DNA of 34,409 bases from Ignavibacteria bacterium. Its GTDB lineage: Bacteria > Bacteroidota > Ignavibacteria > UBA10030 > SZUA-254. Shown piece by piece: positions 26,432 to 34,409 of this stretch (position 1 is the first letter of the stretch; the number at the start of each line of letters is the position of its first letter). The position numbers and the translations under genes are program-made. The DNA lies in the NCBI GenBank assembly GCA_016178595.1, contig JACOSY010000041.1, positions 1-34,409 on the forward strand, read 5' to 3'. The notes beneath the pieces are model-generated. The model saw only the letters and a list, made by a program, of their open reading frames with translations, was not told the DNA's origin and did not search any database.

Positions 26432-28243
26432 TCACAAGACGGTCACGCTTGTCTCAAGCGACATTCTGCATAACTCGTCGCGCATCTCTTCCAGACCACG
26501 AAGAATGTTCTCTCTCTTAACGGCCAGTCGTGTTTCAAGTTCGGAGAAGAGATCCTGGTAATACCCGATTCCATCCTGCAAGTTCTGTTGGAAGGATTGA
26601 AAATATTTCAGCTGCTTTTCCGACAGCGGCTTTGGCGCTTCATCAATCCTTTGTCGAATGTAGTCTACATATAATCTGAGTTCTTTCAGAAACATGTGGG
26701 GGCGCGTCTCTTCGTTGACGAGCGACGTGCGCCCGTAAATATGATCGACCATTTCTTTCAACGATACGGCTTTATCGAAATACGCGAGATTCGGTCCCGG
26801 ACAAATCGAAACGCCCGGTCCCTCTACTCTTGTGCTCGCATCATTCACGAGCAACGCCGCTGTTCCCAACCCGACACAGATGCATGACTTTTCGGTGATG
26901 GCGTCAAATTCTTTTTTGTACTCTTCCACACTCAGATTCTGCTCGTCAAGTTGCTTGATCTTCAAATGCTGATATTCGCGAGATGCAAGGCAGATAGGTC
27001 GGTCGGTAAATTCCGTATTGAGCGAAACATATTTTTTCGGGCACGAGCTTCCGGGGTGTCCCTTGTCGATCGATTCCTGCTTTTCAATATCTTTGGTATT
27101 GTTCTTCAATGTGTTGAACGGAACGCCAAGCGGAGAAATGTTACTCAAGTAGATATCATCTTCTCTTGCGTTGCAGAGAAGCTCCAAGGTATGAGGATCG
27201 ACATTGGTTACCTCCTGCACAAGAAGGAACGGCGAACCCCAGCCGACGGAATCGAGCTCGTAATGCTCGAGCAGCAATTGATGCTCCTCCGCCGTACCGA
27301 CTCCACCTTGCGCTGTGACCCTGACCGGAAGAGGCGAAGGAGGGCACGGGCGATTCTTGTTCTTCAACGCTCCGGCAAAAAGCTCGTATGTGGTTTGAAT
27401 GAGCGACGCCCGGTTGATCTTGAATTCCTCAAGGATCGGTCCCAGCAAATATCCATCCGTTGCAAAGGCGTGTCCGCCGCAATTCAACCCGGATTCGATC
27501 CGGTACTCCGATACCCAGAGACCCTTTTTGGCGAGAAATTTTCCCTGGATCAGTGCAGATCGATAATCGCTTACCTTCAGCGTGATTTTCTTTTTCAGGT
27601 TACCTTGCTCATCGGGATAAAAATCATCGAATGCTTCGGCGTACCCGTAGAGGCGCGGATTCATTCCTGCTGAAAAGACTATCGAGGAGCGCAGGGTGCT
27701 CTGCGCGTACCCTCGAAGCGCGGCGTGTGCATCGTTGAATGTCGCGGGGAGTTTCTCGTCGTTCCGGTAGTTTTCTTTGTCGAGCTTCGTCATGATGTTC
27801 ACATCGATGCTGCCGGGCTGGAGATGAGTGTGAATCCATTCCCGAAGCTCTTCTTTCAGCGTGCCCTTCTCCGGAAGTCTGTGAAAATGTTGCGCGATGG
27901 CGGAACCATCCGGAAGCATGTCGATGTATTTGTGAAGCTCTTCACCTGTTTCTTCGATGGAGTGTTTTAGTTTGGCGAACTTATCGTGGACAATCATGTC
28001 GATGAGATTCAGATATGCCGTGATTCGTTTCGCCCGATGATCCTCCTCTTTTTCGGAGATAGGGCGGAAGGGGATGTTCAATTGCTTGCTGTAGAACCCC
28101 CTCATTTTATCGATGAGAATATCGTCGACCAGCGAAATGACGGACGAAATGCCGTAGTGTGCGACTTTGGCAGGCGTGTCAATGGTGAAACCGATTCCCA
28201 TGACGGGAATGTGAAATGTGTGTGTCTTTTTCGCTTCGCTCAA
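26432..28243 (-). CDS. Conserved protein of unknown function, possible FMN-dependent TIM-barrel
   Basis: A large protein whose family I do not recognise by name. The frame is open to 28390, but homology-like sequence begins near TFHIPVMGIGFTIDTP. The TTG at 28243 (MSEAKKTHTFHIPVMGIG, 603 residues, with CGGAAAA upstream) is the best start; ATG codons downstream would lose conserved-looking sequence. Notable stretches are GLWVSEYRIESGLNCGGHAF (residues about 262-281) and RVTAQGGVGTAEEHQLLLEH. A further one, SVGWGSPFLLVQEVTNVD, resembles glycine-rich phosphate-binding and strand motifs of nitronate monooxygenase or glutamate-synthase-like barrels. A cysteine-containing KSCICVGLG and a C-terminal helical coil follow. 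No transmembrane segment is seen. The enzymatic guess is weak; an alternative is a nucleotide-binding metabolic protein. Confidence 0.8.
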   Translation of the reverse strand: MSEAKKTHTFHIPVMGIGFTIDTPAKVAHYGISSVISLVDDILIDKMRGFYSKQLNIPFRPISEKEEDHRAKRITAYLNLIDMIVHDKFAKLKHSIEETGEELHKYIDMLPDGSAIAQHFHRLPEKGTLKEELREWIHTHLQPGSIDVNIMTKLDKENYRNDEKLPATFNDAHAALRGYAQSTLRSSIVFSAGMNPRLYGYAEAFDDFYPDEQGNLKKKITLKVSDYRSALIQGKFLAKKGLWVSEYRIESGLNCGGHAFATDGYLLGPILEEFKINRASLIQTTYELFAGALKNKNRPCPPSPLPVRVTAQGGVGTAEEHQLLLEHYELDSVGWGSPFLLVQEVTNVDPHTLELLCNAREDDIYLSNISPLGVPFNTLKNNTKDIEKQESIDKGHPGSSCPKKYVSLNTEFTDRPICLASREYQHLKIKQLDEQNLSVEEYKKEFDAITEKSCICVGLGTAALLVNDASTRVEGPGVSICPGPNLAYFDKAVSLKEMVDHIYGRTSLVNEETRPHMFLKELRLYVDYIRQRIDEAPKPLSEKQLKYFQSFQQNLQDGIGYYQDLFSELETRLAVKRENILRGLEEMRDELCRMSLETSVTVL

Positions 28244-28690
28244 TGTTTTCCGTATATAGGCATGAACAATATAATAATTTTTCCTCTGGGGATGAAATGG
28301 TTTTTTGATTGGACGGTGTCGTAATTTGAAATTTAAAAAGTGGACTCTGCGTGTCCCGTCGAAAGACGGGAAACCATTTGCCAAAGGCATCTCCCGAAGG
28401 GATCTGCCGAAGGCATCACTTCGGGACCGTGACCGAATCCCACGCTTGTGTCATGGTGTGGACTCTCGCTTTTCAGCGGGACAGGCTGTGACACCTATGA
28501 AAGGACAATACCCGCTCCAGTACTTTGTGCTCGCGAACAAGTGAGAATTCGCAACCTGAAGGCTTCGTCGCGAGCGCTCAACCGAGAGAATCATCCACAT
28601 TCCCAAAATCGCAAATCCAAAATCCCAAATAATAGTTCTCATTCCTCTCCTCCTTGCTTCTCTTTTCCATTCTTCTGATATTTATGAGGC
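28244..28690. other. Divergent intergenic region, hairpin-rich
   Basis: No credible gene lies in these 447 nt; small open frames lack ribosome binding sites. It has perfect or near-perfect small hairpins: CCCGTC-GAAA-GACGGG (28355-28370), TCCC-GAA-GGGA (28392-28402) and CCGAAG-6 nt-CTTCGG (28407-28424). Two short direct repeats (GTGGACTCT at about 28340 and 28460) and an AT-rich right part (28600-28630) are also present. This looks like a cluster of decayed palindromic repeats, or a structured RNA, next to the pgpH promoter. Confidence 0.5.
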
Positions 28691-32054: not shown

Positions 32055-33500
32055 ATGCATCAGACTCAGAGCACTGTGTGGAAAATAGCAGAACTCAGGA
32101 GTGAAGTCATCGGCATCGACACGAAGGTACCGTTGCTTGATGGAACGGAACGCCGCTACGTTTTCCTTGATAATGCGGCAAGCACTCCGACATTCAAGAG
32201 CGTGCTGAAGTGCGTCGAAGAATTCCTGCCGTGGTACTCCGGCGTCCATCGCGGGATGGGCTTGAAGGCAGTCGTTGCCACGAACGTCTACGATGAAACG
32301 CACCGTATCGCCGGTGAATTCGTTGGGGCGGATCTCGTAAGCAATTCCGTTCTCTTCGGAAAGAATACCACGGAATCAATCAACAAGCTTGCAAAGCGAT
32401 TCAACTTCTCACCGAACGACGTCGTTATTTGCACCGTCATGGAACATCACTCCAACGATCTCCCGTGGCGAAAGTATGCGAAGGTTGTGCACACGGCGAT
32501 TCGACCGGATGGTGGAGTCGATCTCGATGATCTCAAGCGCACGCTCGAAATTTACAAGGGCAGAGTGAAACTTGTTGCAGTGAGTGGGGCTTCGAATGTC
32601 ACTGGAATCTGTAATCCTATTCACGATATTGCCGAGTGGGCGCATTCGGCTGGCGCGAAGATATTCGTCGATGCAGCACAGCTCGCGCCGCACCGTGCGA
32701 TCGACATCCTTCCGAATCGCGCCGCCAAACACATCGACTTCATAGCATATTCTGCACACAAGATCTATGCGCCATTTGGTATTGGCGTTCTGGTTGGCCC
32801 GACGGAATTTTTCGCAAAAGGTGAGCCGGATATGGTTGGCGGCGGCACTGTTTCTTATGTCGGTACAGACGATGTTGAGTGGGGAAGTCTGCCGCAGAAG
32901 GAAGAAGCAGGAAGCCCGAATGTCGTTGGCGCGGTTGCACTTGCAGAAGCGTTGACGGTGCTGAGAACAGTCGGCATGGAAGCGATTGCCGGGCACGAAC
33001 GAACTCTTCTTGAATATGCGATCCCGCGCATGCAGAAACTCCCGGGTGTTCGCATCTATGGGCCGACAGAGGATCTGACGAACAAAATGGGAGTCATTCC
33101 CTTCACGGTCGATGGATTGGATCATGCACTCGTTGCAACGATCTTGAGTGCAGAGGGGGGAATCGGCGTTCGGAACGGCAACTTTTGCGCACAGCCGTAT
33201 ATGAGGAAACTCCTCAATGTCACACCGGAGGAGGAGAAGTCGAGGCGCGCTGCTCGGTGCGATAATCCGATTCTTCCGGGAATGGTTCGTGTAAGCTTTG
33301 GCTGTTACACGAACGAAGATGACATCGATATCTTTGTCGATATGCTGGAGCGGATCGTGAAGCGCGAGTACAAGGGAAAATACTCTGTCGATCCGAGCAC
33401 AGGCATGTATATGACGGACGGATACGGCGTCAACGCGGCGAAGCACTTCCGCTTCTTCAATCCCGCCGGAGCGTCGGTTGCGGGAGAGGAAGTGGCGTGA
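32055..33500 (+). CDS. Class V aminotransferase, SufS/cysteine-desulfurase-like
   Basis: A 481-residue PLP enzyme. The start is the ATG at 32055 with CCGGAG just upstream; upstream open codons belong to another reading frame of xerD. Residues typical of SufS-type desulfurases are present: H131 (MEHHSN, stacks on PLP), D206 (VDAAQ), K236 (AYSAHK, Schiff-base lysine) and C378 in RNGNFCAQP, the position of the persulfide cysteine. The RxGxHCAQP consensus has Phe in place of His. SufS enzymes deliver sulfur for iron-sulfur cluster assembly, but no suf genes are beside it and it is 70 residues longer than usual. Other class V uses, such as cysteine lyase-type reactions, remain possible. Confidence 0.9.
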   Translation: MHQTQSTVWKIAELRSEVIGIDTKVPLLDGTERRYVFLDNAASTPTFKSVLKCVEEFLPWYSGVHRGMGLKAVVATNVYDETHRIAGEFVGADLVSNSVLFGKNTTESINKLAKRFNFSPNDVVICTVMEHHSNDLPWRKYAKVVHTAIRPDGGVDLDDLKRTLEIYKGRVKLVAVSGASNVTGICNPIHDIAEWAHSAGAKIFVDAAQLAPHRAIDILPNRAAKHIDFIAYSAHKIYAPFGIGVLVGPTEFFAKGEPDMVGGGTVSYVGTDDVEWGSLPQKEEAGSPNVVGAVALAEALTVLRTVGMEAIAGHERTLLEYAIPRMQKLPGVRIYGPTEDLTNKMGVIPFTVDGLDHALVATILSAEGGIGVRNGNFCAQPYMRKLLNVTPEEEKSRRAARCDNPILPGMVRVSFGCYTNEDDIDIFVDMLERIVKREYKGKYSVDPSTGMYMTDGYGVNAAKHFRFFNPAGASVAGEEVA

Positions 33501-33535
33501 GAAGCGACGCCATGACTGGGAGGGGGTTGCATGAC

Positions 33536-33597
33536 TGGGAGGGAGTTCCACTCCCGACCCAGAGACAGCACAACTAGGAGGGAGTTCTACTCCCGAC
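33536..33597 (+). repeat. REP-like hairpin copies upstream of the RAYT
   Basis: Two direct copies of a short hairpin repeat lie just before the transposase. They are GGGAGGGAGTTCCACTCCCG (from 33537) and GGAGGGAGTTCTACTCCCGA (from 33577). Both form GGGAGT/ACTCCC stems with 3-nt loops and end in CGAC. A degenerate copy lies at 33517-33530. The same unit recurs downstream from 34165. RAYT proteins act on such repeats. Confidence 0.8.
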
Positions 33598-33613
33598 CTA
33601 AATAGCTGCAATT

Positions 33614-34159
33614 ATGTCGCATTGGAAAATCATTAAAGAAAAGGAAACCGAGCTCTACTTTCTTACTGCCACAATTGTCGAGTGGACTCCGATCTTTCTT
33701 TCACATAAGTATTTTGGGGTAATCATAGAAAGTCTCAAACACTGTCAGGATAAGAAAGAATTGCGCATTGCCGGCTTCGTTATTATGCCGAACCATCTTC
33801 ATATGATAGCGGCAGGAAGTACATCGCATCCTCTATCGGAAACACTAAGGGACTTTAAACACTATACGGCGGTCCAGATAATCAAAACTCTCCAAGAAGC
33901 GAATCAAACAAGAATGCTGAATATATTTCAACAAGCAGCAGCAATGGATGAGCGCAGCAATATTCACAAACTATGGAATGAGGGCAATCATCCAATTCTC
34001 GTTGAAGATGAATATATGTTTCGCGAAAAGCTCAACTACCTCCACGATAATCCCGTACGCAAAGGATTTGTAGAACAACCGGAGCATTGGTTATATTCCA
34101 GTGCGCGGAATTATATTCTCGATGACCATTCGGTATTGAAGATAGAATGTTTAGTATAA
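33614..34159 (+). CDS. REP-associated tyrosine transposase (RAYT, IS200/Y1-like)
   Basis: A 181-residue single-strand transposase of the Y1/HUH class. The metal-binding HUH pair is H61-L-H63 in IMPNHLHMI, and Y84 in DFKHYTAVQI is the likely nucleophile. The C-terminus (LNYLHDNPVRKGFVEQPEHW, about 138-157) is the usual RAYT ending. Such proteins nick and rejoin DNA at small hairpin repeats (REPs), are normally single-copy, and lack the paired ends of an IS. Here the gene is bracketed by the candidate repeats at 33536-33597 and 34165-34409. The start has no strong ribosome binding site. All key residues are intact, so it may be active. Confidence 0.92.
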   Translation: MSHWKIIKEKETELYFLTATIVEWTPIFLSHKYFGVIIESLKHCQDKKELRIAGFVIMPNHLHMIAAGSTSHPLSETLRDFKHYTAVQIIKTLQEANQTRMLNIFQQAAAMDERSNIHKLWNEGNHPILVEDEYMFREKLNYLHDNPVRKGFVEQPEHWLYSSARNYILDDHSVLKIECLV

Positions 34160-34164
34160 TCAGT

Positions 34165-34409
34165 ACTAGGAGGGAGTTCCACTCCCGACTTTATCGTGAG
34201 TGAAGGAATGCCACGCCTGACCACACAACAAGGTCGGGAGTTCAACTCCCTCCCAGCAGGAGAACGGATCATGACTACACAACTAGGAGGGAGTTCCACT
34301 CCCGACTTTATCGTGAGTGAAGGAATGCCACGCCTGACCACACAACAAGGTCGGGAGTTCAACTCCCTCCCAGCAGGAGAACGGATCATGACTACACAAC
34401 TAGGAGGGA
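34165..34409. repeat. Tandem 117-bp REP repeat units
   Basis: Two identical 117-bp units (34165-34281, 34282-34398) and the start of a third reach the window edge. Each unit has a direct hairpin copy (CTAGGAGGGAGTTCCACTCC) and, about 60 nt on, an inverted copy (GTCGGGAGTTCAACTCCC), joined by linkers. This gives a head-to-head pair, the layout of REP doublets. Because 117 is divisible by 3, a false open frame of 39-codon repeats appears on the minus strand. Confidence 0.85.

Follow-up and report, generated by a model that had tools for sequence, protein, structure and literature searches.

The DNA analysed here (the window) is a 34,409-nt stretch that makes up an entire contig, C35, of a 3.1-Mb genome held in 61 contigs and 96.9% complete. 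Contigs C1, C28, C33 and C59, mentioned below, belong to the same genome. With a single genome of the genus compared, no change in copy number was seen, a point against the explanation proposed below. Near the right end of the window, a gene encoding a RAYT / TnpAREP (HUH Y1 transposase) of 181 amino acids was found at 33614..34159 on the + strand. The neighbouring gene (32055..33500, + strand) encodes an aminotransferase class V (SufS-like); it lies outside the element and was used as a synteny anchor. Elsewhere in the window, a 652-aa ORF on the - strand (26432-28390) had no Pfam match at E <= 0.001.

The window RAYT scored 27.1 bits against Pfam Y1_Tnp (cut-off 23) and 105.8 bits against the NCBIfam REP_Tyr_transpos equivalog NF047646 (cut-off 80). 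It carries the HUH motif and a single catalytic tyrosine followed by x(3)NP, and residues H61, H63, Y142, N146 and P147 were invariant across 18 aligned rows comprising the window protein and 17 relatives. The full active site claimed in an earlier note on this DNA was confirmed, with H61, H63 and Tyr142 intact and the family score above its cut-off. The only PDB sequence match at E <= 0.01 was 4er8 (TnpArep), the structure of a RAYT in complex with a REP hairpin, and this entry was also the top structural match in the PDB of the AlphaFold model (mean pLDDT 91.7; E 1.6e-7, TM 0.64, 16% identity). The nearest named relatives came from Ignavibacteriales/Ignavibacteriae MAGs. Membership of the IS200/IS605 family was rejected, because the IS200 transposase model gave 21.4 bits, well below its cut-off of 55, and the tyrosine motif was Y142-x(3)-N146 and not Y-x(3)-Q.

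The hairpin CT[A/G]GGAGGGAGTTnnACTCCCGAC was found on either side of the RAYT gene. Upstream on the + strand, a degenerate half REP (CTGGGAGGGGGTTG, 33516..33529) is followed by a REP with the sequence CTGGGAGGGAGTTCCACTCCCGACC at 33535..33559 and by another at 33574..33598, which is the left end of the RAYT element and the point where homology to C28 and C59 begins. Downstream the same hairpin recurs from 34166, so its presence on both flanks was as previously described. The gene is flanked by inverted REPs, the + REP at 33574 and the - REP at 34232. However, the REP nearest to the stop codon is a + REP and the inverted one lies 72 bp past the stop, which is a point against the explanation proposed below.

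The downstream REPs belong to a tandem array. BIME unit 1 (117 bp, 34165..34281, + strand) contains a + REP at 34166..34189 and a - REP at 34232..34256, which together form a REPIN. BIME unit 2 (117 bp, 34282..34398, + strand) is 100% identical over its 117 nt and contains a + REP at 34283..34306 and a - REP at 34349..34373. The opening 11 bp of a third unit (34399..34409, + strand) are cut by the contig end. Each unit consists of + REP, spacer, - REP and linker, and the units run head-to-tail. The earlier description of head-to-head units was therefore incorrect, as the units are direct repeats and only the two hairpins inside each unit are inverted. The sequence TGAC[C/T]ACACAAC occurs twice per unit (window 34215-34285), once ahead of the - REP and once ahead of the + REP that follows, and one similar to it, GACAGCACAACTAGG, precedes the left REP of the RAYT. 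This recurrence is possibly a trace of how the unit originated.

REPs were counted genome-wide with the strict pattern GGAGGGAGN{3,9}CTCCCGAC, and the reversed pattern served as control. The 3.1-Mb genome contained 30 strict REPs and no control match, indicating that the pattern does not arise by chance. Strict REPs were detected in 15 of the 60 genomes searched, the second-highest count being 9, and over all 60 genomes the control matched once, in G007. Eleven of the 30 sit at C35 or in the opening part of C1. Among the 19 outside the array, 5 are single and 14 form 7 pairs with members <=500 bp apart, all of which face each other, i.e. in REPIN orientation. Two of these pairs enclose RAYT remnants, one at C28 and one at C59.

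The foot of the REP was CTGG in 22 copies, CTAG in 6 and TTGG in 2, and GT[A/G]G was absent from all 30. DNA folding gave a six-pair stem, and several copies additionally showed a short lower stem and a mismatch; for E. coli REPs, a mismatch bulge is known (PMC8266576). The innermost stem pair varies between T-A, C-G and A-T. It was Watson-Crick in 23 of the 27 distinct REP sequences and not in the other 4, compared to a mean of 10.4 in shuffles, of which 0/20000 reached 23. From this covariation the REP hairpin appears to be maintained by selection.

The array does not end with the window. It resumes at C1:1-295, where a partial unit was 97.5% identical to the window unit over 80 bp (2 of 80 positions differ), the next unit 95.7% over 117 (5 of 117) and the last 96.8% over 95 (3 of 95), giving a total of at least ~4.5 units across C35 and C1. 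The 11 bp of the third unit and the further units on C1 thus agree with the earlier view that the array continues past the contig edge. The proposed identity of the units holds for the two in the window (100%) and fails for those on C1 (96-98%). Likewise, the very recent amplification suggested before has to be limited to the window's two identical units, because the C1 units differ at 2-5 positions.

The repeat at the end of C35 is exactly 128 bp long with a period of 117, a length that would be consistent with a stop by an assembler run at k=127. We therefore considered that the second identical unit might be an overlap left at the contig end by such an assembly graph. This was judged very improbable and set aside, because C1 holds ~2.5 more units that are different, and synteny places C1 beside C35. 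Fourteen relatives were searched for two marker genes, the SufS-like gene from the C35 end and the DUF1611 gene from the C1 start; both were found in 6, and in 6/6 they were adjacent and on the same strand, which supports C35 and C1 as neighbours.

No RAYT was found between sufS and DUF1611 in these 6/6 relatives. Their gap of 754-861 bp encodes an M50-peptidase-like protein in 6/6; the G009 protein belongs to Pfam M50, and the other five are 62-72% identical to it. Our assembly contained just a 34% match to this protein, at another place, and the gene was either lost in the window genome or left unassembled between C35 and C1. On the C1 side, a 157-aa ORF (L046:317-787) had no Pfam match.

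Because the linker belongs to the exact 117-bp period, whole units, linker included, have been duplicated, and separate insertions of the units were ruled out. This duplication, together with the local homogenisation of the array units, would also be expected if replication slippage or unequal exchange acted on palindromic DNA alone, with the RAYT uninvolved. We give this alternative close to an even chance. It is countered by the position of the array: in a search of the genome, tandem copies of the 117-bp unit were matched nowhere but at C35 and C1, adjoining the one intact RAYT of its subfamily, and BIME arrays beside RAYTs are already known (PMC2817692, in excerpt).

A RAYT or a remnant of it was found at three loci of the genome, intact at C35 and incomplete at C28 and C59. 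At C28:31643-32157 (L047:2144-2658), a RAYT between REPs has an internal deletion that removed the stretch around Tyr142. Its right side carries one degenerate and one good REP, which weakens the explanation proposed below. At C59:7919-8085 (L049:1420-1586), a 167-bp remnant extends from REP foot to REP foot and contains the opening 75 nt (25 codons) of the RAYT and ~24 nt of the gene end. At E <= 0.01, the RAYT part of this remnant matched only C35 and C28. Next to the remnant lies a second stretch similar to the C-terminus of MutS, this one diverged. The genome also contains a second RAYT, 39% identical to that of the window, at C33:110087-110560, with another hairpin family (CTCCCAAGCAGAGCTTGGGAG) around it.

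The left boundaries of C35, C28 and C59 were measured, and the right boundaries were read by eye. Homology between the three loci begins at the CT of the REP foot. To the left of the foot, segment identity was 0.15-0.40, save for one 5-nt segment at the C35/C28 boundary (CACAA/CATAA, 0.8) that was taken as chance. For the part before the deletion, C35 and C28 gave dN 0.06, dS 0.35 and dN/dS 0.17 with an NG86 script, and a tree paired them at 91/92, below the star mark of the tool. Towards the nearest other RAYT (71% aa) dS was saturated. A dS of 0.35 indicates that the event that separated C35 and C28 was not recent, which also counts against the explanation favoured here.

For the C28 locus eight relatives were fetched, of which G006 lacked one flanking gene in the stretch. 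The two flanking genes were adjacent in 7/7 relatives holding both, with gaps of 40, 44, 79, 510, 537, 713 and 1942 bp, and neither a RAYT nor a strict REP was present at this locus in any of the 7. The C35, C28 and C59 RAYTs might instead be separate horizontal acquisitions of related REPtrons, none of which moved within the genome. The three loci are wholly different outside the left REP, and Nunvar 2013 (PMC3686654, in excerpt) offered horizontal acquisition as another way in which RAYTs may have come to novel sites. We regard separate acquisitions as improbable, though, as C35 and C28 (dS 0.35) are much more similar to one another than either is to any further RAYT matched among 98 genomes of the order, and homology starting at the REP foot requires an element-sized event anyway.

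A further alternative is that homologous recombination or gene conversion involving REPs resident at the target sites, rather than transposition, distributed the RAYT and its REPs. The boundaries do lie at REPs, and REPs are dispersed in the genome. On the other hand, the homology offered by a REP is just ~25 bp, which is short for RecA exchange, and no further REP of the C35 family was found within 500 bp around the C59 remnant. We regard recombination between REPs as unlikely.

A RAYT match at E <= 1e-20 was obtained in 29 of the 98 genomes of the order, our own genome counted. In all six close homologues (51-71% aa), read by eye, an inverted REP comes after the stop codon; it conforms to the strict pattern in G010-C156, G055 and G040 and is a stem variant in G003, G010-C316 and G001. 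A strict + REP upstream of the RAYT was seen, also by eye, in only three of these six, a further point against the favoured explanation. A repeat-bracket test was applied to 69 of 80 wider loci, the other 11, ~230 bp or nearer to a locus end, being left out. In 60/69 of these wider relatives an inverted repeat bracket scored above the best of 10 shuffles. A bracket score >= 40 was reached by 31 loci with inverted and 27 with direct repeats and by none of the shuffles; since direct repeats score nearly as often, as palindromes would, the test indicates repeats on both sides and not their orientation.

Within-genome comparison covered 30 RAYT pieces from 11 multi-copy genomes, and most pairs were of different subfamilies. 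Near-duplicates (>= 85% over 300 bp) were found in two of the 11, our own genome (C35/C28) and G063, and G024 contained a less similar pair (74.6% over 457 bp). The G063 copies, L256 and L257, are 91% identical over 513 bp (90.3% over 648 bp in a wider alignment), belong to another RAYT subfamily and lie at separate loci, and one contains a stop codon. Their match runs from the left hairpin into the right one, and the outer flanks differ. Between genomes, the pairs G001/G010 and G075/G076 share their outer flanks and are orthologues that stayed in place, so stable inheritance also occurs.

Taken together, we consider it probable that the RAYT, its cognate REPs and the BIME array form a REPtron, that the array arose by copying of units, and that the RAYT itself was copied in the past. 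By homology, the RAYT would bind single-stranded REP hairpins, Tyr142 would cut close to the CT in the CT[A/G]G foot, and hairpin pairs (REPINs) would be spread in this way. The array would have grown by duplication of entire units, whether by slippage, unequal exchange or a rolling-circle mechanism. Copies of the RAYT and its REP ends have probably reached three or more loci of the genome in the past, and the shared homology bounded by REPs suggests that two of these copies decayed, internal deletions leaving MITE-like remnants. REPtrons that carry a REPIN/BIME array are already known, and the locus is mostly ordinary.

Movement of the RAYT and its REPs as one unit fits the C28 and C59 copies and the G063 pair; we infer it from the copies bounded by REPs, from the 7/7 relatives that have no RAYT at the C28 locus, and from the G063 pair. 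The REP-bounded copies and remnants suggest that the RAYT gene itself can move. We tentatively propose, as a possibility that falls somewhat short of even, that the RAYT and its two REP ends are, or were until lately in this genus, an autonomous IS-like element, one that travels between REPs and gives rise to internal-deletion derivatives. If so, one genome would keep the successive steps from the RAYT element (C35) through the deleted copy (C28) and the 167-bp remnant (C59) to the plain REPIN. This would exemplify the proposal that REPINs originated as MITEs of a RAYT, and the G063 pair would show a second RAYT subfamily behaving likewise.

RAYTs are described as single-copy, domesticated genes without evidence of mobility in the excerpted texts (PMC8266576, PMC3116915, PMC8049555). 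In the excerpts of Nunvar 2010 (PMC2817692), RAYTs are flanked by two inverted REPs, BIMEs lie beside one third of them, and neither multiple RAYT copies nor a changed location were found. As excerpted, Bertels and Rainey 2011 (PMC3116915) described REPINs, stated that RAYTs appear 'incapable of self-mobilization' and gave an IS200-like element as one possible origin. The excerpt of a 2013 study (PMC3686654) reports some RAYTs at novel sites, for which duplication or horizontal gain was proposed, as well as pseudogenised RAYTs; REPtrons are treated in another 2013 paper (PMC3733652, in excerpt). From 2021, the available text of one paper reports CT cleavage by RAYT and no evidence of mobility (PMC8266576), and that of another single-copy, vertically inherited RAYTs (PMC8049555). 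Within the open-access literature subset, internal-deletion derivatives or MITEs of RAYTs were not recognised, a weak absence, and Ignavibacteri and REPs occurred together in one paper, on Caldithrix. The RAYT copies bounded by REPs, at three loci here and as a pair in G063, make it directly testable whether REPINs descend from a mobile RAYT, and the array beside the intact RAYT offers a natural reporter of RAYT activity.

Compared to known systems, the locus is most like the REPtrons of E. coli, Pseudomonas and Stenotrophomonas. It shares with them the HUH Y1 enzyme, the position of the gene among REPs, REP pairs that face each other, arrays beside the gene, a stem with a small mismatch, and a CT foot. 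In contrast to those REPtrons, where the foot is GT[A/G]G, it is CT[A/G]G in 28 of the 30 REPs here; the REPs are few (30), with 11 at the RAYT locus, and three loci with RAYTs or remnants occur in one genome. The IS200/IS605 elements (IS608, ISDra2) have a related fold and a gene between hairpins, but the window RAYT has N and not Q after the tyrosine and is present in one intact copy only. TnpAY1 subclass 2.6 (with group 5 in brackets in the table of the paper) is described, in the excerpted text of PMC6006769 (2018), as mainly from Bacteroidetes, with 'atypical secondary structures', the motifs NH[LIV]H, WQ, YIH[QN]NP and SS, and a length of about 179 aa. As far as this excerpt allows comparison, the window RAYT resembles the subclass in its length of ~180 aa, NHLH, Y-x-H-x-NP and SS motif and in a foot without GT[A/G]G. 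Since subclass 2.6 is likewise described as lacking GT[A/G]G, the foot does not bar RAYT membership. When the protein motifs were compared with those in the excerpt, the window RAYT differed from subclass 2.6 in having WN and not WQ, and YLHDNP and not YIH[QN]NP.
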